Below, in pieces: positions 3,849 through 62,457 of a DNA stretch of 64,000 nt. A model generated the notes under the pieces. It was not told the origin of the DNA and did not search any database. It saw only the letters and a list, made by a program, of their open reading frames with translations. This stretch comes from Gottschalkia acidurici 9a. Lineage in GTDB: Bacteria; Bacillota; Clostridia; Tissierellales; Gottschalkiaceae. How positions within the stretch are numbered: position 1 is the first letter of the stretch; every line of letters begins with the position of its first letter. Made by a program: the position numbers and the translations under genes. Location of the stretch: positions 2,030,380 through 2,094,379 of the forward strand of contig NC_018664.1 of NCBI RefSeq assembly GCF_000299355.1, written 5' to 3'.

Positions 3849-4369
3849 TTTTAAGACTCCTTTCTTCAGTATTTTTTGTTATTTATGATTGTAATATATA
3901 TGATACCTCTATATTCGGGGGCTAAACATAAGTTTTGTGTGGAGTTGATATATGTAATAATTTTTAACCGTTGAACTGTAGACTGAGACAAGTCACCCGT
4001 CTCTATATCTCCGAGTACCTGCTCTCCATCATCTCTTATAGTATGTCCAAGCATGAAGAGAATTAATCCTCCAAAACAAATAAGACCAGTTGAAAGTATC
4101 CTCAATTCAACTGGTCAGTAATAATAATTTTAGTATTAAATCATGTTTATATAAAACTAATTAAAAATCGTCTTTAATTTTTAAGAGTACTATGGTAGTT
4201 ATATAGTTTACTGTATCGAAGATTTGCTCTAAGTCTATATCTACCACGTGTTTATAACCTTCATTTATATATTCTTAATATTCCTGTACAGTATATTAAT
4301 TCTATTTATTATAAAGCTAAAAGCTGATATTTAAAGATTTTTTATCTAATATTTAATTAGTAACTTAAT
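3849..4369 (-). repeat. Intergenic region with repeat copy B
   Basis: The region contains a perfect hairpin GACCAGTTGA/TCAACTGGTC (4084-4093/4107-4116), the core of the repeat family also seen near 2144, 11872, 14703 and 38151. Similarity continues to about 4200 (AAAACTAATTAAAAATC, matching copy E). The - strand frame 3866-4105 overlaps the hairpin and has no ribosome site. Part of it (RDDGEQVLGDIE) resembles the degenerate stretch beside copy A, so it may be a relic of coding origin. I see nothing else here. Confidence 0.5.
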
Positions 4370-6751
4370 CTACTTCTTACTTTCATTCTCTTCTTTTTCC
4401 TTCAATGCTTTTAATACCTTATCTGGAGTTACGGGTAATGAAGTTAATCTTATTCCAACTGCATCATATATAGCATTAACTATTGAAGGCGCAACTGGAA
4501 GTATAACAGGCTCCCCTATACCTTTTGCTCCGAATGGTGCTGAGGTTTCAGGAGACTCGATTATATATTTATTTATATTCGGCATATCCATCGCTGTAGG
4601 TATTATATACTTACTAAATTTGTTGTTTTTTATTTTTCCATTACTTACTCCAAGATCTTCATATAAGACATACCCAAGTCCCATAGCAAATCCACCATCT
4701 ATTTGTCCTTCTATTAATATAGGATTTACAGCTTTTCCAACGTCTTGAGCACACCAAGCATCAGTACATTGAACCCTACCTGTAAGTGTATCTACTTCAA
4801 CTTCAACTCCATATGAGTTAAATGTATATGGCCAATACGGTGCTCCATATGCATTGTCATCAAGCATTACCGTTTGAGCAGTAAAGGACTCTCTAACTCT
4901 AAGATTTTTTCCTTCTTCTGCTAAGTTTTTTGCTATCTCTGCTAAAGTTACTCTCATCTTTGGAAGTATTTCAAGATAGACCTCACCATTTTCTACTTTA
5001 AATTTATGATTTGAATTAAGTCTAGCTAATTCAGGAAGTGGTTTGTTTATAAGCTTTACTGCTTCTTTTATTAACTCACTTTTGAATTTCTCACTAGCTA
5101 ACTTAACGGCATTTCCTGTATTATAAGTTTGTCTTGTAGCAGCGGCTGTTCCTGAATCTTCACATTCTTCAGTATCTTCTGAAGATATTTTTATCTCAGA
5201 CGGGTCCATTCCTAAAACCTCTGCTGCTATCTGAGGCATGACAGTTTTTGCACCCTGTCCAACCTCTGCTGCTCCAACTCTAAGAAGTACACTTCCATCT
5301 TTAAGAAGCTCGACATCAGCTACTGACACGTCTGGAAATCCATTTCCATATCCAGTTCCATACCAAGCTGCTGCTATTCCTCTACCTTTCTTTATATATG
5401 ATTTATTAGATTTATTATCGATATTTTCTTTACCCATAGCTTTTTCTACAGTATCAATACATACATCTAGAGGACAACTTTCAGTAATTATTTGACCATT
5501 TGCTGTCTCACTACCAACTCTAAATATATTTTTCTTTCTTATTTCAAACTTATCTATATCTAGCTTCTCAGCTAACATATCTATCAATGTTTCACTAACT
5601 ATAGGAACCTGCGTAGCCCCAAATCCTCTCATTGCTCCTCCAAATGGATTATTAGTATAAACTGAATAGCCGTCTACTTTAACATTCGGGATTTGATAAG
5701 GTCCAGTTACATGTACGCAAGCTTTTCTTGTAATATTTATAGCCCACGATGCATATGCTCCAGAATCTGAATAAATCTCAGCTTCAAAAGCGATAAGCTT
5801 ACCTTCTTTGTTGGCACCCATTTTTGCTTTAATTTTCATAGGATGTCTCTTAGAGTGAGCATAGAAAGATTCTTCTCTTGTGTACGTGGCCTTTACAGGT
5901 CTTCTAAGTCTTAAAGCAGCAATTGCAAGATGTATCTGTAGACTGATATCTTCTCTAGCCCCAAATGCACCACCAATCGCTGGATTAACAACCCTTACCC
6001 TTTTTTCATCTACATTAAGAGCTTCTGCTATCTCTGTTCTATCAAAGTGCATGTATTGTGTTGATACTGTAACTACAATTTTATCATTCTCATCCACATA
6101 GGCTATACCACTTTCAGGCTGAAGAAAAGCAGACTCTACGAACGGAGAGTTGAACTCACTTTCAGCAATTGCCGCACATTCTTTCCATATTGATTCAGAC
6201 TCGCACTCGCCTTTTCTTCCTTTATATCTGAATATTAAATTAGGATATGGGATATTCTCTGGTTTTTCATAGACAGTATTCATATCTTTATCGTAAAAAA
6301 AGAATCTATCAGAGTAATCATTCACTACTGGTGCATCAGACTTCAATCCTTCTTCAGGACTAAATATTGCCGGTAGTTCTTCATAGGTTACTTCAACTAG
6401 TTTAGCTGCATCTCTTGCTTGCTCCTGTGTTTCTGCAACTACGAATGCTACAGGATCGCCTATTCTTCTTACTTTTTCTTTGCAAAACACATTATGATCT
6501 CTATATAGAACTCCATGAGCATTCTCTCCTGGCACATCGTCGGCCGTAAATACTTCTAAAACTCCATCAGCAGATTTTGCTTTTTTCGTATCTATGGCAA
6601 CTATCTTGGCATGAGCATAAGGTGACCTTACAGTTGCACCATATGCCATGTCTTCCATTATGATATCTTCTGGATAAATAGCTTTACCTGTAAGCTTATC
6701 AACTCCGTCACGTCTTATTATACTTTTACCAACTTGTTTTAGATCAGCCAT
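4370..6751 (-). CDS. xdhA: Molybdenum hydroxylase large subunit (xanthine dehydrogenase type)
   Basis: A 793-residue molybdopterin-binding subunit. The a/b hammerhead domain covers about 15-130, followed by the two Mo-cofactor domains. Visible motifs are GGAFGARED (cofactor binding), MRGFGATQ, GQGAKTVMPQIAAEVLG and GAKGIGEP, whose Glu is the catalytic base equivalent in xanthine oxidase. It hydroxylates a purine such as hypoxanthine or xanthine, or reduces urate in reverse. It is the last gene of the purine operon and overlaps the Fe-S subunit by 8 nt. In purinolytic clostridia the orthologous enzyme carries labile selenium at Mo. That is family knowledge and cannot be seen in this sequence. 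Gene names follow the E. coli order and are provisional. Confidence 0.9.
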   Translation of the reverse strand: MADLKQVGKSIIRRDGVDKLTGKAIYPEDIIMEDMAYGATVRSPYAHAKIVAIDTKKAKSADGVLEVFTADDVPGENAHGVLYRDHNVFCKEKVRRIGDPVAFVVAETQEQARDAAKLVEVTYEELPAIFSPEEGLKSDAPVVNDYSDRFFFYDKDMNTVYEKPENIPYPNLIFRYKGRKGECESESIWKECAAIAESEFNSPFVESAFLQPESGIAYVDENDKIVVTVSTQYMHFDRTEIAEALNVDEKRVRVVNPAIGGAFGAREDISLQIHLAIAALRLRRPVKATYTREESFYAHSKRHPMKIKAKMGANKEGKLIAFEAEIYSDSGAYASWAINITRKACVHVTGPYQIPNVKVDGYSVYTNNPFGGAMRGFGATQVPIVSETLIDMLAEKLDIDKFEIRKKNIFRVGSETANGQIITESCPLDVCIDTVEKAMGKENIDNKSNKSYIKKGRGIAAAWYGTGYGNGFPDVSVADVELLKDGSVLLRVGAAEVGQGAKTVMPQIAAEVLGMDPSEIKISSEDTEECEDSGTAAATRQTYNTGNAVKLASEKFKSELIKEAVKLINKPLPELARLNSNHKFKVENGEVYLEILPKMRVTLAEIAKNLAEEGKNLRVRESFTAQTVMLDDNAYGAPYWPYTFNSYGVEVEVDTLTGRVQCTDAWCAQDVGKAVNPILIEGQIDGGFAMGLGYVLYEDLGVSNGKIKNNKFSKYIIPTAMDMPNINKYIIESPETSAPFGAKGIGEPVILPVAPSIVNAIYDAVGIRLTSLPVTPDKVLKALKEKEENESKK

Positions 6752-7229
6752 TGTTTTTCATCTCCTTTCTATATACTTTTTGAGCGTCTTTTACTGCTTT
6801 AAACATCTTGTCATACCCTGTACATCTACATAGATTTCCTGATACACATTCCTTTATATCATCTTCTGAGGCATCCGGTTTACTATCTAGAAGAGCCTTT
6901 GCCGAAAGAACCATTCCAGGAATACAGAAACCACATTGTACTGCACCATTATCTAGAAATGACTGTTGAACTGGATGTAGTTCTCCACCTTTCCCAACAC
7001 CTTCAATAGTTTCGATTTTTTTACCATGGCATTGTGCTGCAAGCATTAAACATGAGTCGACAGCCTTTCCATCAACAATAACTGTACAAGCTCCGCACTC
7101 ACCTTCTCCGCAACCTTCCTTAGTTCCTGTTAATCCAAGGTCATTTCGTATGAAGTCAAGAAGCCTCATATCAGGATTAATTTGTTTTTCATAATCAATT
7201 CCATTTACAGTTATCTTTAAATCGAACAT
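6744..7229 (-). CDS. xdhC: Molybdenum hydroxylase 2Fe-2S subunit
   Basis: A 161-residue ferredoxin-like subunit. The plant-type 2Fe-2S motif CGEGECGACTV sits near residue 40 with a partner Cys near 61. The second cluster domain has CGFCIPGM near 98 and CRCTGY near 133. It passes electrons from the Mo site to FAD. The start ATG has AGGAGG eight bases upstream. The gene lies 12 bp after the FAD subunit and overlaps the large subunit, as expected for one heterotrimer. All eight cluster cysteines are present. Confidence 0.93.
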   Translation of the reverse strand: MFDLKITVNGIDYEKQINPDMRLLDFIRNDLGLTGTKEGCGEGECGACTVIVDGKAVDSCLMLAAQCHGKKIETIEGVGKGGELHPVQQSFLDNGAVQCGFCIPGMVLSAKALLDSKPDASEDDIKECVSGNLCRCTGYDKMFKAVKDAQKVYRKEMKNNG

Positions 7230-7241
7230 TTCTATTACCTC

Positions 7242-8108
7242 CTAAATTTCAATCTGCTTAAATGCTTTATCAAGAGCTTTTGTTATTACGCCTTTTACTG
7301 CTTCCTGTTTGAATTCTGCACTACTTCTACCTTTTAACCTTTCAGCAACTATATCTGAAAAATAGTCTGAAGCTTCTTTGATAGTATCTTCTTTCAATGG
7401 CTTTCCTACTAAAAACTCTCCCATTTTCTTTTCAACAGTAGGGATGGTTCCGAGTGCACCTGATGCTACCTTAGCACCTTTTATAATACTATCTTCTACT
7501 TCAAGCGAAACTGCTGAACTAATTCTAGATATAGCAAGAGCATTTCTCAATCCTAATTTATCGAATCCTATTATTCTAAATTTCTTTCCATACATAGGAA
7601 TTATAAATTCTTTTATAACAGCATCTTCCTCTAATGCTGTCTTTCCTTTTCCTAAAAAGAAATCATCAATATCTATTATTTTTTCTTCTGACTTAGATAC
7701 AATTACAACTTTCGCCCCAAGTGCTAGTAATGGTGGTATAGAATCTGCTGCTGGTGACCCATTAGCAGCATTCCCCCCTATAGTACCAGTGTTTCTTATC
7801 TGCTTAGCTCCTACAAGACTACATGCTTCCCATAGTCCGGGTAAAGCCTTCTTAATCTCATTTGAACTTACAATTTCCGTAAACGTAACTGCAGCTCCAA
7901 TTGTTATCTCATCGTCTGAAATATTTATATTTTTCATTTCAGCAACATCTGAAACATCTATTAGAACAGAATGTGAAACCTCTTTAGATCTAAGTTTAAT
8001 CATAATATCTGTTCCACCTGCAATTAAAGTTGCTTTTCCTTTATTTTCACTAAGTGCTTGAGTTACTTCATTTATATTATAAGCCTTAATTATATTTGAT
8101 ATTTTCAC
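7242..8108 (-). CDS. xdhB: Molybdenum hydroxylase FAD-binding subunit
   Basis: A 288-residue member of the CO dehydrogenase/xanthine dehydrogenase flavoprotein family. The FAD-binding motifs are LIAGGTDIMIKLR (about residue 29) and TIGGNAANGSPAADSIPPL (about 108), with the C-terminal CODH FAD domain from about 175. It accepts electrons from the Fe-S subunit and donates to NAD(P) or another acceptor. Translation starts at GTG 8108 with AGGAGG upstream. The length is normal for the family. It is the third gene of the purine operon. Confidence 0.92.
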   Translation of the reverse strand: MKISNIIKAYNINEVTQALSENKGKATLIAGGTDIMIKLRSKEVSHSVLIDVSDVAEMKNINISDDEITIGAAVTFTEIVSSNEIKKALPGLWEACSLVGAKQIRNTGTIGGNAANGSPAADSIPPLLALGAKVVIVSKSEEKIIDIDDFFLGKGKTALEEDAVIKEFIIPMYGKKFRIIGFDKLGLRNALAISRISSAVSLEVEDSIIKGAKVASGALGTIPTVEKKMGEFLVGKPLKEDTIKEASDYFSDIVAERLKGRSSAEFKQEAVKGVITKALDKAFKQIEI

Positions 8109-15223: not shown

Positions 15224-16330
15224 TTAATAACTTATAATTTGTTCACTTTTTTTATCAAACATATGTATTTTTTCTTCATCAAAAACTATATCTATATAGT
15301 CCCCTATATTAGCAGTTATGTTTGCCTCTGTTTTTACTATTAATTCTTGCCCTCTTATATCTAAGTATAGATATGCTTCAGATCCTAGCATTTCTTTTAC
15401 TTCTACTTTTCCTTTTATATTATTATACTTTTCGTTTCTATTACATTTAATTGAAATTGCCTCTGGTCTTATTCCTACTATTATAGTTTTGTCTATATAT
15501 CCTTTTTCTTCTACCATTTTTGCTTTAGCACCAGGTAGTAAAATTTCATTTTCTTGAAATTTAATATAAATGTCGTTATATTTTTTTATTACCTTACATT
15601 CTATAAGATTTATCTGCGGTGACCCTATAAATGTGGCTACAAATACATTCGCAGGTGATGAGTAAATAGTTTGAGGATCTGCTATTTGTTGAACTAATCC
15701 GTCTTTAAGAACTACTATTCTTGATCCCATTGTCATTGCCTCAGTTTGATCGTGTGTTACATATATAAATGTTGTCTGAAGTTTTTTATGAAGCTTGCTT
15801 ATTTCTGTTCTCATATGAGTTCTTAATTTTGCATCTAAATTAGATAGTGGTTCATCCATTAAAAATACTTTTGGTTCTCTTACTATGGCTCTACCTAAAG
15901 CAACTCTTTGTTTTTGCCCTCCAGATAACTCTTTTGGTTTTCTATCTAAAAGGTCTATTATTCCTAATGTTTTAGCTGCATCTTCTACCTTTGCTTTTAT
16001 TTTATCTTTAGGCACTTTTCTCATTTTTAATCCGAATGCTATGTTTTCATATGCAGTTTTATGAGGATATAGAGCATAATTTTGAAAAACCATTGCTATA
16101 TCTCTATCCTTAGGCTCTACTTCATTTACTAAACCTTCATCTATATATAACTCTCCAGATGAAATTTCCTCAAGTCCAGCTATCATTCTAAGAATAGTTG
16201 ACTTTCCACATCCAGAAGGTCCTACTAACACTATAAATTCTTTATCTTTTATTTCTAAATTAAAGTTACTCACTGCATTATATCCATTAGGGTAAGTCTT
16301 TTCTATATTTTTAAGATTAATTTTTGCCAA
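15224..16330 (-). CDS. ABC transporter ATP-binding protein, MalK/UgpC/MsmK type
   Basis: About 368 residues. The Walker A GPSGCGKST is near residue 40, followed by the Q-loop, signature LSGGQKQRVALGRA, Walker B VFLMDEPLSNLDAK and switch His in VTHDQTEA. A C-terminal TOBE/OB domain runs from about 235. It energises a CUT1-type sugar importer, whose permeases and binding protein lie 3-6 kb upstream in the same operon. ATG 16339 sits directly against AGGAG, so TTG 16330 (9-nt spacing) is the likelier start. It is the last gene of the operon and the only ATPase in it. Whether it also serves the FtsX-like proteins is unknown. Confidence 0.9.
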   Translation of the reverse strand: MAKINLKNIEKTYPNGYNAVSNFNLEIKDKEFIVLVGPSGCGKSTILRMIAGLEEISSGELYIDEGLVNEVEPKDRDIAMVFQNYALYPHKTAYENIAFGLKMRKVPKDKIKAKVEDAAKTLGIIDLLDRKPKELSGGQKQRVALGRAIVREPKVFLMDEPLSNLDAKLRTHMRTEISKLHKKLQTTFIYVTHDQTEAMTMGSRIVVLKDGLVQQIADPQTIYSSPANVFVATFIGSPQINLIECKVIKKYNDIYIKFQENEILLPGAKAKMVEEKGYIDKTIIVGIRPEAISIKCNRNEKYNNIKGKVEVKEMLGSEAYLYLDIRGQELIVKTEANITANIGDYIDIVFDEEKIHMFDKKSEQIISY

Positions 16331-16404
16331 CTTCTTCATCTCCTAATTTACTAATTATAAAGTTCATTTTTAAGTAAAACTAGTCTACATTGACTTTTCA
16401 ATAT

Positions 16405-17736
16405 TCATAGATATTGTTTATGTACGAAGTTCAAATATACAAATAAAAGTATTATTCCTAAGCCTTTAATATCTATAAATATTGGCAGTTTTAATATATA
16501 AGCTAGCAATAGTACTAAAGCATAAGATATACAAAAAAATAGATTTAGGTTTTTTAAATTCTTATAATATAAATTTGGTTTTAATTTTAATTGATAAAAT
16601 CCTATATATATCAAAGGAATACCAATAAATATTGAAATATAGAATACAAAAGATAAGATTTTTAAAATAATATTTAATTTAATTTCCTGCAGCGATATTA
16701 TATAGCTTGTGTCTAAAAAACCTTCCCATAATATATTACTAAGTAAATTAAATAAAAATTTAATACTTATAATTTCTTCGGAAATATACTCTTTTGGAAT
16801 ATATATATTGAACTTTACTATATTCCATATTATAAAGACACTTAAAATAATAATAATTATATATAACATCTTATTAACTACCTTACGTATATTTCTTTTT
16901 AAAACATCCACTAAATAATCTTCTTTGCATTCTCTCAAAATAAAACTATATAAATCCCTTATCATATATATAGCGAATTTAATAGTAATTATTATAGAGA
17001 TAGTACCTAGTAAAAACATTATGATTCTTGGCTTTTGTATACTCTGCATACTTTTAATATTATAGTCATATATGTTATAATCATCAGGATGTTTACCTAT
17101 TAATTTCAAGGCATTTTCCATATCCTCAATATTTTTTTTCGTTGTATATGAATTGCTAGTCTTTATTTCCAAGTGAGATATTCTTGTACATTCGTCTATT
17201 TTTAAAAGAGACTCCAGCGGCATATATATTTCTAACATTTTTTCATGTGACTTAATGCCTACTATTTTAAATTTTTCTTCAAGTATATAAATTTCTTTTC
17301 CTAAAACATCTATGCTTCCAAAAGCTTTCCATGCTAGTTTTTCATCAATTACTACAATTTTTTCATTTAGCTCCTCATCTTTTTTATTAAAGAAGTAACC
17401 CTTATTAAACTTTACATTATTAAAATTAGTATAGTTATAGTTTGTCCCTATAAGTCTTACATTTGTAACATCTTCTATATCTACTTCATTATATGATGAA
17501 AATGTAATTTCACTATTTTTAAATATATCTTTTAGATTTTTTATGTCTTCAAGTGTAAACGGAGCTCCATCTTTATTAGTTTTTAAATCCTTAATATTTA
17601 CTATAACTTTTTCCATACCATACTTTCCGTTAATCTCTTGTAGCTTCAAAACCAATGAATTTCCTAATACTGTACCTAATATTATCAGTAACAAACCCAT
17701 ATATATTAAAATCATTGAAAAACCAGCTTTTTTCAC
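16405..17736 (-). CDS. MacB/FtsX-like membrane protein
   Basis: 443 residues. There is an N-terminal helix (about 8-28), an extracytoplasmic MacB-PCD-like domain (about 30-235; note VVIDEKLAWKAFGS and VLGKEIYI, typical of the fold), then three or four helices (about 237-260, 288-308, 358-380, 403-440). This is the topology of an FtsX/MacB permease, but its helices diverge from characterised exporters. The GTG start overlaps the stop of the HlyD-like gene by 4 nt, so the two are translationally coupled, like MacA/MacB pairs. No MacB-type ATPase is encoded next to it. Confidence 0.75.
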   Translation of the reverse strand: MKKAGFSMILIYMGLLLIILGTVLGNSLVLKLQEINGKYGMEKVIVNIKDLKTNKDGAPFTLEDIKNLKDIFKNSEITFSSYNEVDIEDVTNVRLIGTNYNYTNFNNVKFNKGYFFNKKDEELNEKIVVIDEKLAWKAFGSIDVLGKEIYILEEKFKIVGIKSHEKMLEIYMPLESLLKIDECTRISHLEIKTSNSYTTKKNIEDMENALKLIGKHPDDYNIYDYNIKSMQSIQKPRIIMFLLGTISIIITIKFAIYMIRDLYSFILRECKEDYLVDVLKRNIRKVVNKMLYIIIIILSVFIIWNIVKFNIYIPKEYISEEIISIKFLFNLLSNILWEGFLDTSYIISLQEIKLNIILKILSFVFYISIFIGIPLIYIGFYQLKLKPNLYYKNLKNLNLFFCISYALVLLLAYILKLPIFIDIKGLGIILLFVYLNFVHKQYL

Positions 17737-18992
17737 TCCACCTTTATCCTTTCCTTCTCTGATATTGGTCTATCACTATTTACTATAATCTCATCTTCAA
17801 TGTCTATGATACCAACTACAGCTGTATTTGAATTGTCCGAATCTTCTATGTTTAATCTGATTTCTTGAGTATAATACTCCTTTCCAAATGGACCCTCTGT
17901 AGTTTTAACTATCAGCACAAATCTACCCTTATAGTCTTCACGTATAGCTTCATTTGGAACTAATAAATCATAATTTAAGGATTTCTTTTTTATATTTACT
18001 TCAGCTATCTCTCCTCCTACTAATTTTTCTGAATTTAAAGATATTATTATTTCTTTTTCGTCTCTTTTTTCTTCTTGAGTATTTGAATTATCTATAATAT
18101 CTGTAATTTTTCCTTCTATATTTTCTCCTATAGACCTTATGACTACTTCTACTACATCTTCTTTATTTAAATAAGAAGCTTTTTTGATATCTAAAGGAAT
18201 TCTTACTTGATATCCTTTAGATATATCTGATATTTTATATAAAGGCTTTGATGAATCTGTAAAAGTACCTTCTAAAAAATTAATCTCTTCTATTCTTCCG
18301 TCCATTTTAGCCATCATCTTACCTAAATTTTCTATGTCATCTTTGAGACTATTAATTTTGTTTTCTTGTAGCTTTAATTCAAGTTCTAACTCTTTTGTAT
18401 TAAGTTTTCTTTCTTCTATTTCTCTTTCTTTATCTAGTAAAACTTTTTGATACTCTCTCTTTATATTATTCAAGTTTATTTCTGATTTTTTAATATTAGC
18501 TTCAGATTCTCCTCCAATTTTATAAAGCTCCTTATTTATTCTCAATTCGTCTTCAGCTTGTCTAATCTTATCTTCTAAGGATCTAAGATCTATATTATAT
18601 TTTTCATCTATATTACTACTAAGCTTCTCAATACTAACTTTTTTTTTCTCAAATGTTATAAGTTCATCTTCTAGATTCCTTTGTAACTCTCTAGTGTCAA
18701 CATTCATAAGTACCTGTCCACTATTAACTAAATCTCCGACCTTAACATTTACATCAGTAACCTTAAGAGATTTGTCCATATAAAACTCATAAGTTTCCTT
18801 TGCCTCTATTTTTCCCTCTCCACTAATAGCTATTTCTAGCTCACCACTGGTTGGATTAGTTACACTTACAGTAGGTATCATAAAGTTATAGATTGTTTTC
18901 GAAAAAAACGTAAGAAAAATCATTGTTATAATAAATCCTTTTATAGCTTTTTTTATAAAGACTCTATCTGTGTCTTCTCTAATATCTGCCAT
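17733..18992 (-). CDS. HlyD/MacA-like periplasmic adaptor protein
   Basis: 419 residues. There is an N-terminal membrane anchor (about 17-36), a lipoyl/barrel half (about 50-90; GEGKIEAKETYEF, VKVGDLVNSGQVL), a long coiled coil (about 93-225, rich in Glu, Lys and Leu), and the second barrel half with a C-terminal domain (LLVPNEAIREDYKGR). It is a membrane fusion-type adaptor that in Gram-positives works with MacB/FtsX-like permeases. The start has AGGAGG 8 nt away. It overlaps the FtsX-like gene downstream and follows a sugar-type permease by 16 bp, so it belongs to one operon with an importer, which is uncommon. Confidence 0.88.
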   Translation of the reverse strand: MADIREDTDRVFIKKAIKGFIITMIFLTFFSKTIYNFMIPTVSVTNPTSGELEIAISGEGKIEAKETYEFYMDKSLKVTDVNVKVGDLVNSGQVLMNVDTRELQRNLEDELITFEKKKVSIEKLSSNIDEKYNIDLRSLEDKIRQAEDELRINKELYKIGGESEANIKKSEINLNNIKREYQKVLLDKEREIEERKLNTKELELELKLQENKINSLKDDIENLGKMMAKMDGRIEEINFLEGTFTDSSKPLYKISDISKGYQVRIPLDIKKASYLNKEDVVEVVIRSIGENIEGKITDIIDNSNTQEEKRDEKEIIISLNSEKLVGGEIAEVNIKKKSLNYDLLVPNEAIREDYKGRFVLIVKTTEGPFGKEYYTQEIRLNIEDSDNSNTAVVGIIDIEDEIIVNSDRPISEKERIKVE

Positions 18993-19008
18993 ATATCTGT
19001 CCTCCTAG

Positions 19009-19854
19009 TTAGCCCTTATTCCCAGAATCTTTTATACCTTCAGTAAGATATTTTCCGCAATATAAAAACATAAGTAACATAGGTATCATGTAAAAAAAAG
19101 AAGCTGCAAATGCAACACCCTTTTCATTTTGATTTATTGCATATAAATAAGTAGATAGTGGTTGTTTATATTCTTCTTTTAAAAATACAATGGGCTGTTC
19201 TACCATATTCCAGTTATCTATAAACGTAAGTATTGCTAATGCTACTATAGCTGTCTTACAAAGAGGAGCTACTATTTTTATAAAGATTCCCAATGTACTT
19301 GCTCCATCTATTCTAGCAGCCTCTATATAAGACTTAGGTATTTTTTTCATATATTGCCTTAGTAAAAACACTCCATATGTATTAAATATACCTGGAAATA
19401 TTATTGATAAGTAACTTCCAATTAAGTTTAGTTTATCTGCAATAATATAGTTAGGAACTAATGTTACATGAATAGGCATAAGCATCACAACTATATATAC
19501 AAAAAACAGATGTTCCTTCCATTTTAATTTACTTATATGAAATGCATATGATGCCATCAAGGATACTACTACTTGTCCTAAAGTAATAGGTAAAACTATT
19601 AAAATGGAGTTCCAAAACATATTAAAATACATATTATTTTTTATAAACAATGAATAGTATTGTTCTATAGTTACTTCTTCAGGAATTAATTTCATAGTTA
19701 TAAACTCTATTTTCTCACTTTCAATATCATAGCTATTATTAATTTCCCTTTCCGACATAAATGAATTTAACATAGTAAAAATCGTAGGAAAAGAAAATAT
19801 GACTACTAGAAGAGTTACTATTATTAAAGCTATAATCTTTTTTATATTTAACAC
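19009..19854 (-). CDS. Carbohydrate-type ABC transporter permease (MalG-like)
   Basis: 281 residues with six predicted helices. The EAA loop EAARIDGASTLGIFIKIVAPL (about residue 180) contacts the ATPase. The N-terminal region matches the CUT1 MalG/LacG type, including a periplasmic segment before helix 2. It starts at GTG with AGGTGA upstream and follows the MalF-like permease by 11 bp. It forms the second half of the transmembrane channel. The substrate cannot be inferred. Confidence 0.9.
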   Translation of the reverse strand: MLNIKKIIALIIVTLLVVIFSFPTIFTMLNSFMSEREINNSYDIESEKIEFITMKLIPEEVTIEQYYSLFIKNNMYFNMFWNSILIVLPITLGQVVVSLMASYAFHISKLKWKEHLFFVYIVVMLMPIHVTLVPNYIIADKLNLIGSYLSIIFPGIFNTYGVFLLRQYMKKIPKSYIEAARIDGASTLGIFIKIVAPLCKTAIVALAILTFIDNWNMVEQPIVFLKEEYKQPLSTYLYAINQNEKGVAFAASFFYMIPMLLMFLYCGKYLTEGIKDSGNKG

Positions 19855-19865
19855 TAAATCACCTC

Positions 19866-20720
19866 TTAATCAAAACTATCAGAGCTTATTTTCTTTTCAA
19901 CCTTAAATATAAAATATACTAGTATAGCGATAGCACATGTTATTATGTATGCTGATGTAGATAGTCTTTGATAATTAACCGAACTAAACATATTATTCAT
20001 ATAGTGCTGAATCATATATATGCTTTCATGAGGATATTCTCCAAATACTAAGTAAATTTCTCTAAAGGTTTTAAATGAATTGATAATAGAAATTATAAAT
20101 ATAAAAAAAGTCGTTGGTGTTAAATATACTATAGTTATATTAAAAAACTTCTGAATACTATTTGCTCCGTCTATGTTAGCAGCTTCATAGTAAACTTTAG
20201 GTATTTCACTTAATCCAGCTAAATATAATATAACGTTATATCCAATGTTCCTCCACATATAAATTAATACTATGATTATCCTAGACCATCCTGTATTTAT
20301 CCAATCTATACCTTCTATATTAAAGACGTTTAATATATAGTTTAGCAACCCCTTTGAATCAAAAATAATTTGCCAAAAGAATGCTACAGATGCAACTGGA
20401 ACTACCAAGGGACACATAAATATAGTTCTAAGCAAGTTTTTTAAAAAACTTATTTTGTTTAAAAGTATTGCTATCAATAGTGAAAATATTATATTTAAAG
20501 GAATGCTTATAGCTATAAATATAACTGTATTTAACATAGCTTTTAAAAATACAGTGTTAGTCAGCAGTTCTTTAAAACTATTTAACCCTATAAATTTGTT
20601 GTCTATAGGGTTAAAGGCTATATAATATATACTTGCTATAAAAGGCAATAGGTAGAATATTAAAAATCCTATTAAGCTTGGTATGAGAAATAAATTTACC
20701 TTGTCTTTAATACTGTTCAT
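19866..20720 (-). CDS. Carbohydrate-type ABC transporter permease (MalF-like)
   Basis: 284 residues with six helices. The EAA motif YEAANIDGANSIQKFF is near residue 185. Its N-terminus FLIPSLIGFLIFYLLPFIASIYYI is typical of CUT1 permeases. The gene overlaps the end of the solute-binding protein gene by 14 nt, so the two are coupled. It pairs with the MalG-like protein downstream. Confidence 0.9.
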   Translation of the reverse strand: MNSIKDKVNLFLIPSLIGFLIFYLLPFIASIYYIAFNPIDNKFIGLNSFKELLTNTVFLKAMLNTVIFIAISIPLNIIFSLLIAILLNKISFLKNLLRTIFMCPLVVPVASVAFFWQIIFDSKGLLNYILNVFNIEGIDWINTGWSRIIIVLIYMWRNIGYNVILYLAGLSEIPKVYYEAANIDGANSIQKFFNITIVYLTPTTFFIFIISIINSFKTFREIYLVFGEYPHESIYMIQHYMNNMFSSVNYQRLSTSAYIITCAIAILVYFIFKVEKKISSDSFD

Positions 20721-22029
20721 TTAAGTACATTAAGACCTTTTTTTGTATATTTTTAGCTACTTCTTCTGCTGACTTTTTTCCTGAAAAATACGTTTCTATT
20801 TCTTTAAAAACGATATCATTAATTACACGATTGCTATGAACATATTTATTAGCATTTAACATACGTTCTCTTTTGATTTCCGTTATTTCATCAAATGTAT
20901 TAATAGCTTTATCCTTGTCTAATTCATCTTTTTCTATATCTTTTATGTACTCATTATGTTCTTTTTTAATTTTTTCTTCAAAAGCTATTTTATTTACCGG
21001 CAAAAGGTAATTATTTGGTGAAGATTGCATCTCACTAGAAATTAAAAATTTCATAAATTTCCATGCTATATCTTTATTTTTAGAATTATTATTCATCGCA
21101 TAACTATGGCCTGGGCGAAAGTTTACTTTCCCATTTCCTGAAGGTTCTCTATAAATACGTTTATCATCATATTTAGCTAATAGTTCTTTTGAAGCAACTG
21201 ATGTCTCATAATATATTTCATTTTCAAAATAAATATTAGCCTTTGGATACTTTGATTTCTCTGAAGGTGATAATATAACTTTATCGTCAGATATTTTCTT
21301 ACTGTATTTAAGTAGATTTATAAACTCTTCTGAATCAAAGTTTACACTCTTTTTATTTTCATTTACAAAATCTTCATAAGTATCTCCAAATATTGCTGCA
21401 AAAACACGAGTACTAGAATATTCAACTACATAGTCATTTTCATTTTTGTTCTTACCTAAGTCATAAAAATCTTCCCATGTCCAATTCTTGTCATCTACTT
21501 TTATATCTTTTGCTCCCCTTAATAAGCCAAAGTCAATATCAGTTGGAAGTGTATATAGGCCTTCTCTGTATTCTATGCCTTTAAATATATTCATATAGTA
21601 CTCATCCTTATTAAATTCCCTATCATTTTCTATTAATTTGTTTAAATCTACAAGTAATCCCTTGTTTATATACTCTTGATAAGGAAGTCTCCAGGAATCA
21701 CAAAGTATTATATCAGGACCACCTCCAGCCATAAGCTCAGTGTTTATACTACGTGTAAATTTATCTTTGGACTCATCGTATGCTTTTTTATCAAGATCCT
21801 TACGATTTTTTGGCAAATGTTCTTTTATATTAATTTTTATACCTGGATTATTTTTTTCAAATTCACGTGCTACTGCTTCTAAGTAGTTATCTGATGCAAA
21901 TCCTTCTATATTTATAACTTTGTTTTCTCCTCTCTTAGAACTAGTATCTTTAAAATTACTGCACGCCGTAAAAGTAAATAATATTAAAGAATTTAATATT
22001 AGTATAAAAACCTTATTTAAATCTTTCAT
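20707..22029 (-). CDS. Extracellular solute-binding lipoprotein (family 1 type)
   Basis: 440 residues. A lipoprotein signal peptide ends in the lipobox FTAC (Cys about 23). The mature part has the family 1 extracellular-binding fold: INIEGFASDNYLEAVAREFEK, GGGPDIILCDSW (about residue 104), and PGHSYAMNNNSKNKDIAWKFMKFL near the C-terminus. It captures the ligand for the MalF/MalG-like channel. The ligand is unknown; family members bind sugars, and some bind other solutes. The gene follows the permease-kinase fusion after a terminator-like hairpin, so it may also have its own promoter or be attenuated. Confidence 0.88.
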   Translation of the reverse strand: MKDLNKVFILILNSLILFTFTACSNFKDTSSKRGENKVINIEGFASDNYLEAVAREFEKNNPGIKINIKEHLPKNRKDLDKKAYDESKDKFTRSINTELMAGGGPDIILCDSWRLPYQEYINKGLLVDLNKLIENDREFNKDEYYMNIFKGIEYREGLYTLPTDIDFGLLRGAKDIKVDDKNWTWEDFYDLGKNKNENDYVVEYSSTRVFAAIFGDTYEDFVNENKKSVNFDSEEFINLLKYSKKISDDKVILSPSEKSKYPKANIYFENEIYYETSVASKELLAKYDDKRIYREPSGNGKVNFRPGHSYAMNNNSKNKDIAWKFMKFLISSEMQSSPNNYLLPVNKIAFEEKIKKEHNEYIKDIEKDELDKDKAINTFDEITEIKRERMLNANKYVHSNRVINDIVFKEIETYFSGKKSAEEVAKNIQKKVLMYLNEQY

Positions 22030-22049: not shown

Positions 22050-22115
22050 AAAAAGATGATATTTTTAGGTGTTAAGCTAATAACCCTTAATTCACCTAAA
22101 AGATACCATCTTTTT
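22050..22115 (-). terminator. Hairpin between the kinase fusion and the binding-protein gene
   Basis: A long interrupted stem (22050-22071/22093-22115) is followed by TTTTTT on the - strand, 20 nt before the ribosome site of the lipoprotein gene. It could end the regulator transcript or lower expression of the downstream genes. Confidence 0.7.
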
Positions 22116-22166
22116 ATATACACTTCAACTATATTTGCAAAAGTGTAGCCTTTATATGCAAAAGTG

Positions 22167-25100
22167 TTAGTCAATACTTTTATTTTTAAGTAAAACAGAT
22201 AATTTAAAAAATTTATTAGCACAACTTATATCTAAATCTCCATCATATTTATTTACTATATTTCTTATAGTAGATAAACCATATCCGTGATAAGTTTTAT
22301 CTATCTTTGTCGTTTCTAAAAAGTTTACATCTATATTCTCATATACGGGATTTATTATAACAATAGAAATATACTCTTGTACTGTTGATAATTTAACTAT
22401 TATAGTTCTATTACTATTAGTCTCTGATATTTTTTCAGTCGCCTCAATTGCATTATCAATAGCATTTGATAGTAATATAGAAATATCAATATGATCTATG
22501 ACGATTTCTTTTGATATAGCTAACTTATAATCTAATTTACTGTTAATTTCTTTAATTCTTTTACATTTTGAGTTTAAAATAGAGTCTAGGGACGCTATTC
22601 CTGTATCAAAATAGTTTTTTATACTCTTCACTTCCCCTGTTAACTCTAATATATAATTTTTAGCACTTTCTAAATCATTTTTTTCTAAGTATCCATGTAT
22701 AGCTAATAAATTTGCGTTTATATCATGCTTTATTCTTCTAATTTCATTTTGTGAGCTATACAGTTCTTTATAATATTCCTTTTGAATTTTAAGTTGATTT
22801 TCAATAAATAATATCTTCTGCTTCTCTACCTCTACTTTTATTTTACGTTCAATAATATAAAATAAAAGTATTGCTCCAAAGGCTGCTAGTGTACATAAAG
22901 TTATAGAAATAGCACTAAACTCTAGTATTTCTATTATAGGAAGCCTATATTTAACTATATTTGGCATTCCAAAGTCGTTTTTATACTGCTTTATAACCAT
23001 TTTAATAAATATATAGATTTTATAAGAACCTAATATGGCAGAAGCTATACTTCCTAATATTCCATACACAATAGCTTCTTTCAATATAATATTTTTTATT
23101 TTATTAAATTTCATATTTGTATTTATTAATAATTTAGTTCTTATTGTATTAAATATATTTAACCCAGCTATAAATAATAATATACTTATGATTATTCCAT
23201 ACCTTTTTTTATTTTCTTTACTTAAACTTTTAGACTTTTGAATATGTTCAATTTTGCTTTTTATAGTTGAAAAAGGTTTGTTTTTTATTATTTTATTTAG
23301 TTTTTTATATACATAATCTTCCTTTCCCTTTTCCACTCTGATGTTAACGGTTCTATATTCATTTCTTCCAGTCATATCTATGAGCTTACTTTTTGGGATT
23401 ATAATCTCGGGCATTGTTCCTATTCCATTGTCTCCTTTTATCGACCACTCTTTTTTCAATAACGCTCCTACTCTTACTTTATAATCTGTATAAGTTAGTT
23501 TACCCTCTTTTACTATAGGCATTTTTACAGTGATTATATCCCCTACTTTTAAATTTTTTCTAACTTTTTTGATTTTATAGTTATTTAATCCATCATAGTA
23601 ATAGTTATATGCTATAACACTAGGATATTTATCTAATGTTTCATCTAATATAGATTTGCTATCAATATACTTTTCTAACTTCTTTAGTTTACCATCATCA
23701 TAACCTTTTATCTGAATGTGTGTTTCAATATTTTCACTTCCATTTGATACTCCTATATCTTTTATATATTCATCTTCTATATCTCTGATATTTGACTTTA
23801 AAAAACCATATATTTTTATAACAGAGTCAACTTCACTAACACCATCTATATTAGATATATTTTTTATATCCTCATCGGTATACCCTGTAAAATTAGTATC
23901 TATATTAAAATAATAGTCATAATCCAGTATAAAGTCATTATCTTCCATTGATAGCAGTCTAGGTGATATATCATCAAGAATACTATCATTTATACTAGAG
24001 ATATGCTCTATATAAACCATCCCACCTATACTTATAGATAAAACCGTTATAATAGATATTATCTTATTTTTTATACTATTTTTATAATTTATTTTTCTAT
24101 TTATATTAAATATTTTATCTAATTTTCTAAGTACTTTACTTTTTAGTAGTAATAGTTGTACTACACTTGATACTATAGTCATTAACGTCCCAACTTTAAT
24201 AGACCTTGTTATAGTTTTTAAACTTATATAGATATCTCCTTTAACATCAAGCAGTATACTTGTTGATACATATCCGAACATTTCTACTCCATAATGTGCA
24301 AAAGTAGCTCCTAATATAGTTCCTAAAATTATTCCTAGCGTCATTATCATTAGACTTTGAATAAGTATTATAACATCTACATCTTTATTTGATAGTTTTA
24401 AAGTTTCTTTATCTTGTATAATATTATTTATTAGACTATTAAATATAATAGATAATAACAAAGTAACTGTAATAATAACTAAAGTTTTTATATAGACGTA
24501 ATTCTCACCATTCTGTGCAGCATAATAATCATCTAATGCTCCTATTAGATGATTATCACCGTTATAATTTGATCTTTCTATGTTATATCTTTCTCTTATT
24601 TGATCTAATTTTTCTTTATGATTTATATTTGTTTTAAGCTTTACATAAGTTTCATATTTTATTAAATTATCCGGTATTATTTTGGTTTCTCCTTCTTCAA
24701 AAAACGTAAAACCTTTAAATATATGATATTCTTTGTAGTAGTCACTTGGCTTGTCTATTATGCCTACTAGTTTAAACTCCTTATCTTCTACAAATATTTG
24801 ATTTATGTTATTTTCGTCTTTATATTCCTTTTTAATTTTAAAGTTAATTATTTGATTTAACTCTTCCTTTAGCCCCATTTTCTTCAGGGTTTGTGATTCT
24901 AATATTAATTCTCCATGTTTTTTAGGTATGTGTCCTTTTTTAAGGATATATTCATTCATATTTATATAATATTTATCTACAGAGTTTAAGCTTAAACTAA
25001 CTCCATTATCATATATAGCCTGTCCCAAGTTTGCAATTTCTACTGATTTATCTATATCTTTATCTAGTTTAATTTCTTTTACTTTTTCTTTATCTAGATT

Positions 25101-25289
25101 AATATAAGCCCCATGAAAAGAACCATATATCTTGTACACATTCTCTAACTGACCTCTACTTTGACTTTCTCCTATTACATCAAGTCCGAATACTATTGCC
25201 ACTGCTAAAGAAATTCCCAATATAGAAATAATTACTCTATCTTTTTCACTTTTAAAATAATTTAAAGCTAAGTATATGTATTTTTTCAT
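22167..25289 (-). CDS. FtsX-type ABC permease fused to an AgrC-like GHKL histidine kinase
   Basis: One uninterrupted 1040-residue frame. The N-terminal 815 residues form a full FtsX/MacB-like permease: helix about 19-40, extracellular domain 41-265, three helices (266-290, 307-335, 365-383), helix 407-428, second extracellular domain 430-695, and three helices (697-717, 738-770, 786-813). A short coiled coil leads to a DHp-like segment with RRIKHDINANLLAIHGYL (His855), then a GHKL ATPase domain with N-box LLSNAIDNAIEAT (about 939) and G-box HGYGLSTIRN (about 1001). The kinase resembles AgrC/LytTR-partner kinases, and a LytTR regulator lies 16 bp upstream. The permease part probably senses a ligand or a transporter state. 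This architecture is not one I know as standard. Confidence 0.85.
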   Translation of the reverse strand: MKKYIYLALNYFKSEKDRVIISILGISLAVAIVFGLDVIGESQSRGQLENVYKIYGSFHGAYINLDKEKVKEIKLDKDIDKSVEIANLGQAIYDNGVSLSLNSVDKYYINMNEYILKKGHIPKKHGELILESQTLKKMGLKEELNQIINFKIKKEYKDENNINQIFVEDKEFKLVGIIDKPSDYYKEYHIFKGFTFFEEGETKIIPDNLIKYETYVKLKTNINHKEKLDQIRERYNIERSNYNGDNHLIGALDDYYAAQNGENYVYIKTLVIITVTLLLSIIFNSLINNIIQDKETLKLSNKDVDVIILIQSLMIMTLGIILGTILGATFAHYGVEMFGYVSTSILLDVKGDIYISLKTITRSIKVGTLMTIVSSVVQLLLLKSKVLRKLDKIFNINRKINYKNSIKNKIISIITVLSISIGGMVYIEHISSINDSILDDISPRLLSMEDNDFILDYDYYFNIDTNFTGYTDEDIKNISNIDGVSEVDSVIKIYGFLKSNIRDIEDEYIKDIGVSNGSENIETHIQIKGYDDGKLKKLEKYIDSKSILDETLDKYPSVIAYNYYYDGLNNYKIKKVRKNLKVGDIITVKMPIVKEGKLTYTDYKVRVGALLKKEWSIKGDNGIGTMPEIIIPKSKLIDMTGRNEYRTVNIRVEKGKEDYVYKKLNKIIKNKPFSTIKSKIEHIQKSKSLSKENKKRYGIIISILLFIAGLNIFNTIRTKLLINTNMKFNKIKNIILKEAIVYGILGSIASAILGSYKIYIFIKMVIKQYKNDFGMPNIVKYRLPIIEILEFSAISITLCTLAAFGAILLFYIIERKIKVEVEKQKILFIENQLKIQKEYYKELYSSQNEIRRIKHDINANLLAIHGYLEKNDLESAKNYILELTGEVKSIKNYFDTGIASLDSILNSKCKRIKEINSKLDYKLAISKEIVIDHIDISILLSNAIDNAIEATEKISETNSNRTIIVKLSTVQEYISIVIINPVYENIDVNFLETTKIDKTYHGYGLSTIRNIVNKYDGDLDISCANKFFKLSVLLKNKSID

Positions 25290-26016: not shown

Positions 26017-26515
26017 ACTATTCCTCCTCATATAAATATCTAGTAGAGCTCTTAGCTAAAAAAACCACTTCTCATAATAGAAGTGGTTTTTTTATCCAGT
26101 TTAGTCTCATATCTCAGCTCTTACTTCATATTTAAAAACCTTTACCCAGTAAATCCACCCCATCATATACTAACTTATTGATTTTATTTGACCAAATAAT
26201 ATTTTATCATGAGTTGGTAGTATTTTCTATGCCATATATGAAAGTGCTACTCTCGATTTTCTTATTAAGCAAAATATGTTGATATTCTATATTTATATTT
26301 TTTCATTCTACTTTAGTCTCTTTTGGGATTACTTATGATACGATTGTACATATCTCTTACAGCTAAATTTTTTATTAATAAACTATTTAAAGCTACTGAT
26401 ACTTTTACATAAAAGTATCAATAGCTTTAACACAATAATTATATATTATTAATTAATTTACTATTTATTCTATTTCTGTTCTAAGAACAAAGTTTTACTT
26501 CTTCTTTATTGTTGA
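26017..26515. other. Intergenic region upstream of the LytTR operon
   Basis: The region holds the hairpin at 26058-26093 and another stem, GCTACTGATACTTTTA/AAAAGTATCAATAGC, at about 26390-26426, after the LiaF-like gene. I see no ORF. Direct repeats that would mark LytTR sites could not be identified with confidence. Confidence 0.4.
26058..26093. terminator. Bidirectional terminator upstream of the LytTR gene
   Basis: The stem CCACTTCT/AGAAGTGG with A7 before it and T7 after it reads as a terminator on both strands. It lies only about 42 nt upstream of the regulator start, so the operon promoter must overlap or precede it. Attenuation is possible. Confidence 0.8.
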
Positions 26516-27214
26516 CTAGATATAAATTATTTCTACTCCTGCAAAATTAATATCACCAACTAATGTTAGAGTACTCGTTGTTGTTTTATCATTCTTGTTT
26601 TTTTCACTAATAGCGCCTAAAAATACATTAGTTTTATCATTTACATTCCAAGTTTTTGGTATATATAGTTCTATTCCTGAAAAAGAAGCATTAATACTAA
26701 CTATAGCATTATCATTAAGCATAATTGCATTATCAAAATACACCTTCATGGCTCCAAAAGAACAATTAAAATCTGCTTGTTCAAAACTATCTGTATTTAT
26801 ATATTTTATACTAGCGCCAAATGAATTTTTAAATATAACATGACTTTCGTCCTCTATATCAATTTTTTCAAATTTATAATCTTCAGTATTATTCTCAATC
26901 TTAGTCCATTTATTAGGTTTATGAAAGATCATAGAGAAACCAATACTACCAAGTAGGGCTGCAATTAATACAGTCCAAGGTGTAATATTTGTAATCCCTA
27001 ATTGTTTGTCATATATTATACAAATAAATGCAATAGGAAATAAAATACCTGCAAAATTAATACGAAGAATACTTTTTACAATAACTACTACTAAAAAAAC
27101 TGTTAGCAATAAGCTAAACACATTTACATCTGGAAAGTATCCAAGCTTACTTATAACTAAGAAAATTCCTCCTAGTATAAGTAAAATTCCAAAGAAAATC
27201 CTCTCTTTTTTCAT
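26516..27214 (-). CDS. LiaF-like cell-envelope response protein
   Basis: 232 residues. Four N-terminal helices (about 5-22, 28-47, 50-68, 82-98) are followed by a soluble beta-rich domain with repeated FGA and FSG turns (SFGASIKYI, SFGAMKVYFDNAI, SFSGIELYIPKTWNV). That domain matches the DUF2154/LiaF C-terminal fold (bactofilin-like repeats). LiaF proteins restrain LiaRS-type envelope-stress signalling. The partner here is not a LiaS kinase but the LytTR protein encoded 1 nt upstream, a pairing common in Firmicutes. Confidence 0.82.
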   Translation of the reverse strand: MKKERIFFGILLILGGIFLVISKLGYFPDVNVFSLLLTVFLVVVIVKSILRINFAGILFPIAFICIIYDKQLGITNITPWTVLIAALLGSIGFSMIFHKPNKWTKIENNTEDYKFEKIDIEDESHVIFKNSFGASIKYINTDSFEQADFNCSFGAMKVYFDNAIMLNDNAIVSINASFSGIELYIPKTWNVNDKTNVFLGAISEKNKNDKTTTSTLTLVGDINFAGVEIIYI

Positions 27215-27215
27215 A

Positions 27216-27671
27216 TCATTTCCTCTTTTCTAATAATTTAATTTTTAATGGCTTATAATAATACCTTGAAACATATACCTGTTTATGAGTATTCTGAAAC
27301 TCAACCTTACTTGAGGATGATAATTTTCGTGTTATGGAGTAAATATGATTTGTATTTAGAATTGTTGATTTTGAAACTCTCATAAAATATCCTGGCAAAA
27401 CTTCTTCAAGTTCATAAAGTTTATATTTTACACTATATATATTATCAATGGTATGTGCACAAATCCCATTGCTTTCAGTTTCGAAAAATAAAATCTTCTC
27501 CAGTGAAATATAATACTCAGTATCGTCTCTGTAAAATGTGATATGTTTCTTGTGTGATAACATATCACTAAGTATAGTCTGAATATTTTTAACATCTTCA
27601 CTTAGTTCGTTGCACCTAATAATAACTTCACTTTCTTTAATTTTACTATCTATTTCAATTCTTATTTTCAT
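27216..27671 (-). CDS. Stand-alone LytTR DNA-binding protein
   Basis: About 151 residues with no receiver domain. The LytTR domain occupies about 45-150: ISLEKILFFETESNGICAHT, LPGYFMRVSKSTILNTNHI and VYVSRYYYKPLKIKL. The frame extends to GTG 27686, but GGAG nine bases before ATG 27671 marks the start. It is a transcription regulator co-transcribed with the LiaF-like gene, which probably modulates it. A promoter was not resolved. Confidence 0.87.
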   Translation of the reverse strand: MKIRIEIDSKIKESEVIIRCNELSEDVKNIQTILSDMLSHKKHITFYRDDTEYYISLEKILFFETESNGICAHTIDNIYSVKYKLYELEEVLPGYFMRVSKSTILNTNHIYSITRKLSSSSKVEFQNTHKQVYVSRYYYKPLKIKLLEKRK

Positions 27672-27882
27672 ATTTTCACTCTCCACATCTTTTATTATAT
27701 TAACTATTTTTCCTTTGTAAATATAACAACAGTAAGTGGTCAGTTATTGATTGTAAGTGGTATGCCTTTTATACATACATGTATTAAACTATATATAATA
27801 AAGATTTCATCAGTACTAAATATGTCTTTTTAATACTTTTCCATTGATTTCATCTAGTCTATTTTAAGCCTTCTTGAATATT

Positions 27883-61113: not shown

Positions 61114-61123
61114 TTTTTCACCT

Positions 61124-62332: not shown

Positions 62333-62368
62333 AAAATCTCCTTTATTTTTATCAGTATTTTAAGTTCT

Positions 62369-62416
62369 TTATCAATTAAAAATAGAGGAGATATCTCCTC
62401 TATTTTTAATTGATAA
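62369..62416 (-). terminator. 48-bp perfect palindrome between binding protein and permease genes
   Basis: Two 24-bp arms (62369-62392, 62393-62416) are exact complements; the A5 and T5 runs in the arms give a strong terminator-like structure on either strand. It should reduce readthrough from the binding-protein gene into the permease/ATPase pair. Confidence 0.8.
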
Positions 62417-62457
62417 TACAATAGTTTTGCTAAACACTAAGTCTTATATATTTAATC

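Follow-up and report, generated by a model that had tools for sequence, protein, structure and literature searches.

We describe here a gene, P0001, in a stretch of 64,000 nucleotides of the Gottschalkia acidurici 9a genome (contig NC_018664.1, positions 2,030,380 to 2,094,379; hereafter the window), which joins an ATP-binding cassette (ABC) transporter permease to a histidine kinase in a single polypeptide. Judged from its sequence, P0001 is probably a receptor histidine kinase that uses a former type VII (YbbP/FtsX-like) ABC permease as its receptor, and it would regulate the operon downstream of it via the adjacent LytTR response regulator P0002. That the permease itself provides the sensor input, and that it may have lost transport, had been guesses in a first-pass annotation of this DNA. 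Both now are backed by the loss of the stretches that couple such permeases to their ATPase, by the preservation of the ectodomains, and by a LytTR-type promoter pattern behind the gene.

P0001 forms one unbroken frame of 1040 codons with an ATG start and no internal stops, as had been annotated; the strand, which the annotation lacked, is the minus strand. In its C-terminal part, Pfam identifies a GHKL ATPase domain (HATPase_c_5, residues 932-1034, E 1.7e-21), and there are matches below the cut-off to HATPase_c, SPOB_a (847-893) and MacB_PCD. The first-pass annotation had also described a segment resembling a dimerization and histidine phosphotransfer (DHp) domain and intact N- and G-boxes, and these are indeed present in the form of the motifs KHDIN from residue 854 (containing His855), NAIDNAIEA from 942 and GYGLS from 1002. 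Furthermore, the kinase part matches the AgrC kinase module 6e52 (phmmer, E 6e-6) and can be aligned with AgrC-like kinases across the HD motif, the N-box and the G-box. By its sequence, P0001 hence carries the N-box, the G-box and the predicted phosphoacceptor histidine of an AgrC-type GHKL kinase. The kinase relatives have a multi-helix N-terminal membrane part that is absent in P0001, where the permease takes its place. This covalent union of a transporter-type membrane domain with a kinase is what defines a transceptor. P0002, the LytTR regulator, lies upstream at a distance of 16 bp, in agreement with the earlier description.

No FtsX-domain match was found by Pfam in P0001, and the identity of its permease half therefore is established via homology. 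P0001 shares 36-44% identity over about 800 residues with six unfused permeases of 852-867 residues, among them those of Thermoanaerobacterium (44%), two genomes of the order (G394, 41%; G003, 39%), its own genome (P0007, 39%) and Romboutsia lituseburensis (36%); the genome search gave other identities to P0001 for three of these (G394 44%, G003 40%, P0007 41%). An AlphaFold2 model of the permease half, calculated from 16 alignment rows, has a mean predicted local distance difference test score (pLDDT) of 79.7 and a predicted template modeling score of 0.70, and it displays eight long helices and two ectodomains. Its best structural match is E. coli YbbP (Z score 21.7, root-mean-square deviation 8.4 over 644 residues; Foldseek E 1.1e-18). 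The modeled arrangement of two four-helix units, each with a large ectodomain, is that of a type VII ABC permease, and the earlier assignment of an FtsX/MacB-like permease with eight helices and two ectodomains thus holds. In a tree of the permease parts, P0001 groups with its closest relatives, inside their clade, and its branch measures 0.8 changes per column.

The strongest departure of P0001 from these relatives concerns the places where a permease of this type meets its ATPase. In YbbP, coupling helices between transmembrane helices (TM) 2 and 3 and between TM8 and TM9 contact the ATPases (PMC12646458). The YbbP TM8-9 loop is equivalent to the TM6-7 loop of P0001. We aligned P0001 with 35 unfused homologues of more than 780 residues each. 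All 35 carry, in both loops, an ungapped ten-residue coupling stretch with a glycine at its end, and P0001 is the sole protein that lacks both. In MacB, a C-terminal minor coupling helix also touches the ATPase (PMC5985334). This contact site is where the kinase starts in P0001, such that this end, too, has been replaced: the C-terminal permease tail has given way to the kinase. The coupling helices that would contact an ATPase thus appear to be missing from the P0001 sequence, and from the missing coupling stretches only, we predict that P0001 has lost transport.

The divergence of the permease half is not uniform. We determined, for each region, the identity between P0001 and seven close unfused relatives and divided it by the identity among these relatives. 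By this ratio, TM2 (0.54), the TM2-3 loop (0.39) and TM4 (0.63) are eroded, TM6 (0.98), TM7 (0.95) and TM8 (1.23) are not, and both ectodomains are as conserved as among the relatives themselves (Table 1). When the identity of the cytoplasmic parts is divided by that of the ectodomains, P0001 has the lowest value of all 36 proteins (0.84, with the other 35 at 1.15-1.84), and it is also lowest for the membrane parts relative to the ectodomains (0.95, the next being 0.99). Decay without selection would lower the identity of all regions, such that the preservation of the ectodomains fits selection on an outward-facing receptor. That their identity is unreduced despite the long branch likewise speaks for selection acting on the outer face of the protein.

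The consensus of the ComE/AgrA box was the prompt for seeking repeats with a 21-bp period. Directly behind the stop codon of P0001 lies an 11-bp direct repeat; with up to three mismatches allowed, neither the window nor the rest of the genome contains another match. Among ten spacers behind kinase genes, each cut at 400 bases, a 9-mer repeat (at most one mismatch) with a period of 21 was found in five, that of P0001 included, while every other period from 13 to 35 occurred in at most two. By eye, these spacers have a common geometry, YASTT-N16-YASTT-N12-TTGA-N16-TGNTAT; because the pattern was drawn from them, the sites among the ten are not independent. In the window, it is matched without mismatch at 22103-22166, with 0.09 matches expected at up to two mismatches; a match with two mismatches at 29061 was taken as chance. 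Across 784,095 bases of loci (overlapping loci included, and 11-13 bases permitted before TTGA, L092 having 11), there are 12 distinct perfect copies, five with one mismatch and two with two, as opposed to 0, 0 and 2 in one shuffled set. Copies outside the set that defined the pattern are those in L096/L065, L106, L105 and L107, a second one in L109, and L058:1141. In LytTR systems elsewhere, direct repeats are about 12 bp apart and lie about 10 bp before the -35 element (PMC6193735), and the promoter predicted behind P0001 agrees with both distances. The genes that follow the promoter in relatives encode a permease-ATPase pair (L056, L091, L104, L109) or AgrBD (L092), and at P0001 the solute-binding protein of a six-gene operon. 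As an observation in its own right, this fixed LytTR-type geometry recurs beside GHKL kinase and FtsX permease genes in several genera (L056, L058, L061, L091, L092, L096, L101, L104-L107, L109).

From this arrangement, the six-gene operon is predicted to be the target of P0001 and P0002. Its MacB-like protein, P0021, has matches in 38 of 248 genomes of the order, and the cassette was whole or partial in all six loci that were then inspected. In genome G537 (L125), it directly precedes a LytTR regulator and a split GHKL kinase, and in G412 (L128) it lies beside a permease-ATPase pair of P0001's permease family. In the remaining four loci (L126, L127, L129, L130), its neighbor is a HisKA kinase; the presence of an OmpR-type regulator was confirmed for L127 and L130. 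The cassette thus keeps company with two-component genes, which are of the LytTR kind in two cases. Apart from its regulation, the cassette (15224-22029 on the minus strand of the window, and L125-L130) is a recurring hybrid of a MalFGK-type importer with solute-binding protein, an HlyD adaptor and a MacB-like protein. Its MacB-like proteins, in the window and in six aligned relatives, are by eye devoid of an LRAIG-type coupling motif, and no FtsE-type gene was found inside the cassette in the window or in L125-L130.

Table 1. Features of the P0001 locus in window coordinates
Feature	Position	Strand	Basis
Operon gene 6: MalK-like ATPase	15224-16339	-	Pfam
Operon gene 5: MacB-like protein P0021, no LRAIG-type coupling motif seen	16405-17736	-	Pfam, alignment by eye
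Operon gene 4: HlyD/MacA-like adaptor	17733-18992	-	Pfam
Operon gene 3: MalG/UgpE-like permease	19009-19854	-	Pfam
Operon gene 2: MalF/UgpA-like permease	19866-20720	-	Pfam
Operon gene 1: extracellular solute-binding protein	20707-22029	-	Pfam
Hairpin with trailing T-run (approximate limits) that overlaps the predicted promoter and stops some 20 bp short of the following start codon	22048-22115	-	By eye; absent from terminator scan
Predicted LytTR operator-promoter with an 11-bp direct repeat free of mismatches (22157-22167 and 22136-22146; period 21 bp), followed by TTGA and an extended -10	22103-22167	-	Repeat and pattern scan
Fused gene P0001: FtsX/YbbP-like permease and AgrC-type GHKL histidine kinase	22167-25289	-	Open reading frame, Pfam, homology
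GHKL ATPase domain of P0001, residues 932-1034	22188-22496	-	Pfam, alignment, phmmer
TM8, lengthened cytoplasmic helix and DHp-like segment, residues 785-893 (His855 at 22725-22727), in place of the permease C-terminus	22611-22937	-	Alignment, motif, low-confidence model
TM6-TM7 loop, residues 716-736: second coupling stretch missing, 9-residue gap	23082-23144	-	Alignment
Ectodomain 2, residues about 440-690; identity ratio 1.01	23220-23972	-	Alignment, model
TM4-TM5 linker (residues 383-410), shortened by about 20 residues compared with close relatives	24060-24143	-	Alignment
TM2-TM3 loop, residues 288-306: first coupling stretch lost, 3-residue gap, motif absent	24372-24428	-	Alignment
Ectodomain 1, residues about 42-262; identity ratio to unfused relatives 0.98	24504-25166	-	Alignment, model
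LytTR response regulator P0002, receiver and LytTR domain, 241 residues	25306-26031	-	Open reading frame, Pfam

Relatives of the locus harbor the same components in split form. Regulator, AgrC-like kinase, permease and ATPase are separate neighbors in the same genome (L056), on a P. sordellii plasmid (L091), in Romboutsia (L101, L106), in Terrisporobacter (L104) and in L109. These loci share the promoter geometry of the P0001 locus (in L104 with one mismatch, and with a short regulator frame that comprises the receiver only), but their genes are separate, the kinase has its own membrane part, and the permease keeps the coupling stretches; the L104 permease (768 residues) lies outside the 35-protein coupling count.

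The first-pass annotation had called for homologues with the same FtsX-FtsX-GHKL order. None was found, and every relative whose end is visible is split (L102 of G565 runs off its contig). The annotation had named split homologues as a finding that would speak against the fusion, but the loss of both coupling stretches is confined to the fused protein. A second fusion was not found in the organism's own family (4 genomes), in a class sample of 391 genomes searched with residues 700-1040 (E up to 1e-10; best five candidates per genome, among the matches listed), in the order (249 genomes, E up to 1e-20, best three per genome), in a phylum sample of 398 genomes (E up to 1e-20, best five per genome) or in six chosen genomes in which all candidates were scored. 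The class and phylum samples also gave frames of 612-680 residues. A search of the 391-genome class sample with profile A6 (E up to 1e-40, best two per genome) gave none either, and was of little use, its model having shrunk to 507 positions. These samples overlap and cannot be summed, and a divergent fusion could escape the scoring of the best two to five candidates per genome. In a collection of 84,980 species, P0001 as query found no relative, and profile A3 found at least 11 loci; permease and kinase are unfused in ten of them, and in L102 the permease runs off the contig. Viral contigs held no relative, and among plasmids 19 records matched, but no single place in any of them covered 80% of the query. 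In all loci gathered, the only frame of 900 codons or more that matched the permease half was that of P0001 itself.

Some candidates were set aside. A second frame of over 1000 codons in the same genome gave a weak GHKL hit but none to the permease half, and a short related kinase frame in G609 (L066), considered as a sensor-less kinase, lies near a contig end. Alignments that paired kinases with the permease half were not used for the kinase, for which alignment A6 served instead. Three further observations concern the relatives. On a P. sordellii plasmid (L092), a regulator, a kinase, AgrB, a cyclic-lactone autoinducer, an FtsX-like permease and radical S-adenosylmethionine (radical-SAM) genes stand in one row. 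In L093 of G565, a small multi-cysteine open frame (about 7720-7890) near radical-SAM genes and permease copies resembles, by eye, the precursor of a modified peptide. In the same locus (3891-7371), one permease copy is in pieces with an apparent mobile-element insertion between them (by eye), and an unbroken copy about 7 kb further on is cut by the contig end.

As the first-pass annotation had stated, no MacB-type ATPase is adjacent to P0001: within the window, no FtsE/LolD-type ATPase gene was found in the 22 kb on one side, where the sole ATPase is of the MalK type, or in the nearer 35 kb on the other. An FtsE-like frame is present in the fetched stretch of 15 of 17 distinct unfused permease loci. 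The two others likewise have none there, and we therefore dropped the missing neighbor as a sole argument for lost transport. The FtsE-like frame nearest to P0001 (60445-61113, 35 kb off) has 38% identity to an ATPase of L056 and lies beside same-strand frames of 402 and 354 residues; together (60445-63522, minus strand), they are perhaps an ordinary MacAB-type set.

As to how P0001 might work, we lean towards a type VII permease that has turned into a receptor kinase without a motor, whose outside was kept and whose ATPase contacts were cut, and in which long-range movement, which in such permeases normally passes from the ATPase to the ectodomain, is reversed, such that it would run from the ligand-bound ectodomain to the kinase. 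An extracellular ligand, most likely a peptide, would bind on or between the two ectodomains; movement would pass through the helix bundle and TM8, which may continue as a helix into the dimerization and phosphotransfer segment. The kinase part would dimerize, His855 would be phosphorylated, and the phosphate would be passed on to P0002, which would then bind the 21-bp-period repeat and turn on the operon of solute-binding protein, MalFG, HlyD, MacB and MalK proteins. P0001 itself would not be expected to carry out ATP-driven transport. The peptide nature of the ligand is a guess, made because several permease relatives sit in radical-SAM peptide clusters. Genes related to those for the radical-SAM maturases or the S8 protease of G394 are found in five of 17 distinct permease loci, that of G394 included, and in one plasmid locus AgrB and a cyclic-lactone autoinducer gene lie beside the permease. 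AgrC-type kinases sense peptides.

Several points weigh against this picture. The fusion is known from one genome, and all judgeable relatives are split. Within the coupling motif, the basic residue is also absent from the unfused L020 (both loops) and L095:3209-5749 (second loop), and since L092 and L103 also show no FtsE-like gene in the fetched stretch, its absence near P0001 proves little by itself. Conceivably, an FtsE-like ATPase could act on P0001 in trans. The full-length model is poor (mean pLDDT 53.1), and the single helix that it shows at residues 785-869 has a pLDDT of about 53-75. At the G537 cassette, there is no copy of the promoter pattern, though the spacer behind its kinase gene does contain a repeat with a 21-bp period. 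Finally, the support for a peptide ligand is indirect. The main weakness is that the case comes from one genome and from sequence alone.

P0001 might instead be a working transporter that also signals, if it paired with an FtsE-type ATPase encoded elsewhere and its kinase read transport as proposed for BceAB-BceS. Its fold is that of a full YbbP-like permease, and other permease-ATPase loci of the family in the same genome (L056, L057) make ATPases available in trans. Yet such a transporter would have to function without either coupling stretch and with its tail replaced, and with membrane and cytoplasmic parts that have diverged, relative to the ectodomains, beyond any of the 35 relatives; furthermore, no such ATPase lies in the 22 kb and the 35 kb to its two sides in the window. 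This alternative hence appears unlikely. The erosion of transmembrane and cytoplasmic regions is also what would be seen if the permease half were the decaying membrane anchor of a kinase that is constitutive or internally controlled, but an anchor would not explain ectodomains with unreduced identity on so long a branch, and we consider this quite improbable. Lastly, two genes could have been joined by an error of assembly or sequencing, a thought suggested by the split state of all judgeable relatives and by the single assembly of the organism. Against this, the joint is in frame, with a lengthened TM8 directly before the kinase linker, and both the arrangement of the genes and the promoter suit a two-component locus that has a single kinase. 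Moreover, P0001 alone lacks the coupling stretches, which lie about 90 and 520 codons upstream of the joint and whose loss is not explicable by an assembly slip at codons 800-860, making an artefact very improbable.

A LytTR-only regulator (156 residues) followed by a LiaF-type membrane protein (232 residues) is located directly upstream of the P0002-P0001 pair (26516-27686, minus strand), and looks similar in kind to the LytTR regulatory systems of PMC6193735. A hairpin with a T-run, seen by eye and absent from the terminator scan, lies about 30 bp before the P0002 start codon (about 26057-26095, minus strand), and the scan itself gave a terminator-like hairpin further upstream (26387-26430, minus strand). 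No known Rfam RNA was found in window positions 12000-33000.

How does P0001 compare with known systems? AgrC-type GHKL kinases with LytTR regulators share with it the kinase core, the phosphoacceptor motif, the neighboring regulator and the direct repeats behind the kinase gene, but in the usual AgrC topology the kinase has an N-terminal membrane part of its own, where P0001 has the permease. YbbP of E. coli YbbAP-TesA, which the permease half matches along its entire length, is likewise a single chain built from two MacB-like halves and bearing two ectodomains. It differs in possessing two additional helices in its center and a pair of coupling helices that contact two YbbA ATPases (PMC12646458), whereas P0001 has neither coupling stretch and is joined to a kinase. 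In the Bce modules (BceAB-BceS-BceR), a type VII permease likewise supplies the sensing for a kinase (PMC7828314), and the response needs an active BceA ATPase (PMC5985334). However, permease, ATPase and kinase are separate proteins there, while P0001 unites permease and kinase without ATPase contacts; with its single chain and no ATPase nearby, the locus is not a Bce-type detoxification module.

The first-pass annotation had held that known permease-linked sensing uses separate proteins. This is true for Bce, but not for the CbrA family (PMC7096432), in which a permease and a kinase form a single chain. CbrA and other SLC5-kinase transceptors thus also join a transporter to a histidine kinase in one polypeptide (PMC7096432, PMC13022988), but the transporter family of CbrA is unrelated, the link is a STAC domain, and histidine transport is retained. 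5TMR kinases with the fold of the S-component of energy-coupling factor transporters also have a membrane fold common to transporters and receptor kinases (PMC11109136); there, the link was drawn by structure comparison, whereas the descent of P0001 from a permease clade is visible in sequence identity. A search by titles and the beginnings of abstracts, outside of which most papers in subscription journals lay, found no paper on an FtsX-type permease fused to a histidine kinase. Transporter-kinase chains (SLC5, S-component fold) and signaling by Bce permeases are already known, and the fusion of a type VII permease to a kinase appears to be new.

The promoter geometry seen downstream of the kinase gene can be used for regulon prediction and provides an easy reporter for P0001 and for its split relatives in several genera. 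P0001 moreover makes a probable conversion of a transporter into a receptor visible, with relatives at 36-44% identity that still have the features of transporters; the published cases that we found retain transport (CbrA) or show the relationship by fold only. It is a matter of current debate whether signaling by type VII permeases, BceAB among them, depends on ligand binding or on transport activity. A chain like P0001, which has kept its ectodomains, lost the coupling stretches and gained a kinase, makes these two modes of signaling directly testable. If our reading is true, sensing by Bce-like permeases need not in principle depend on ATP-driven transport.

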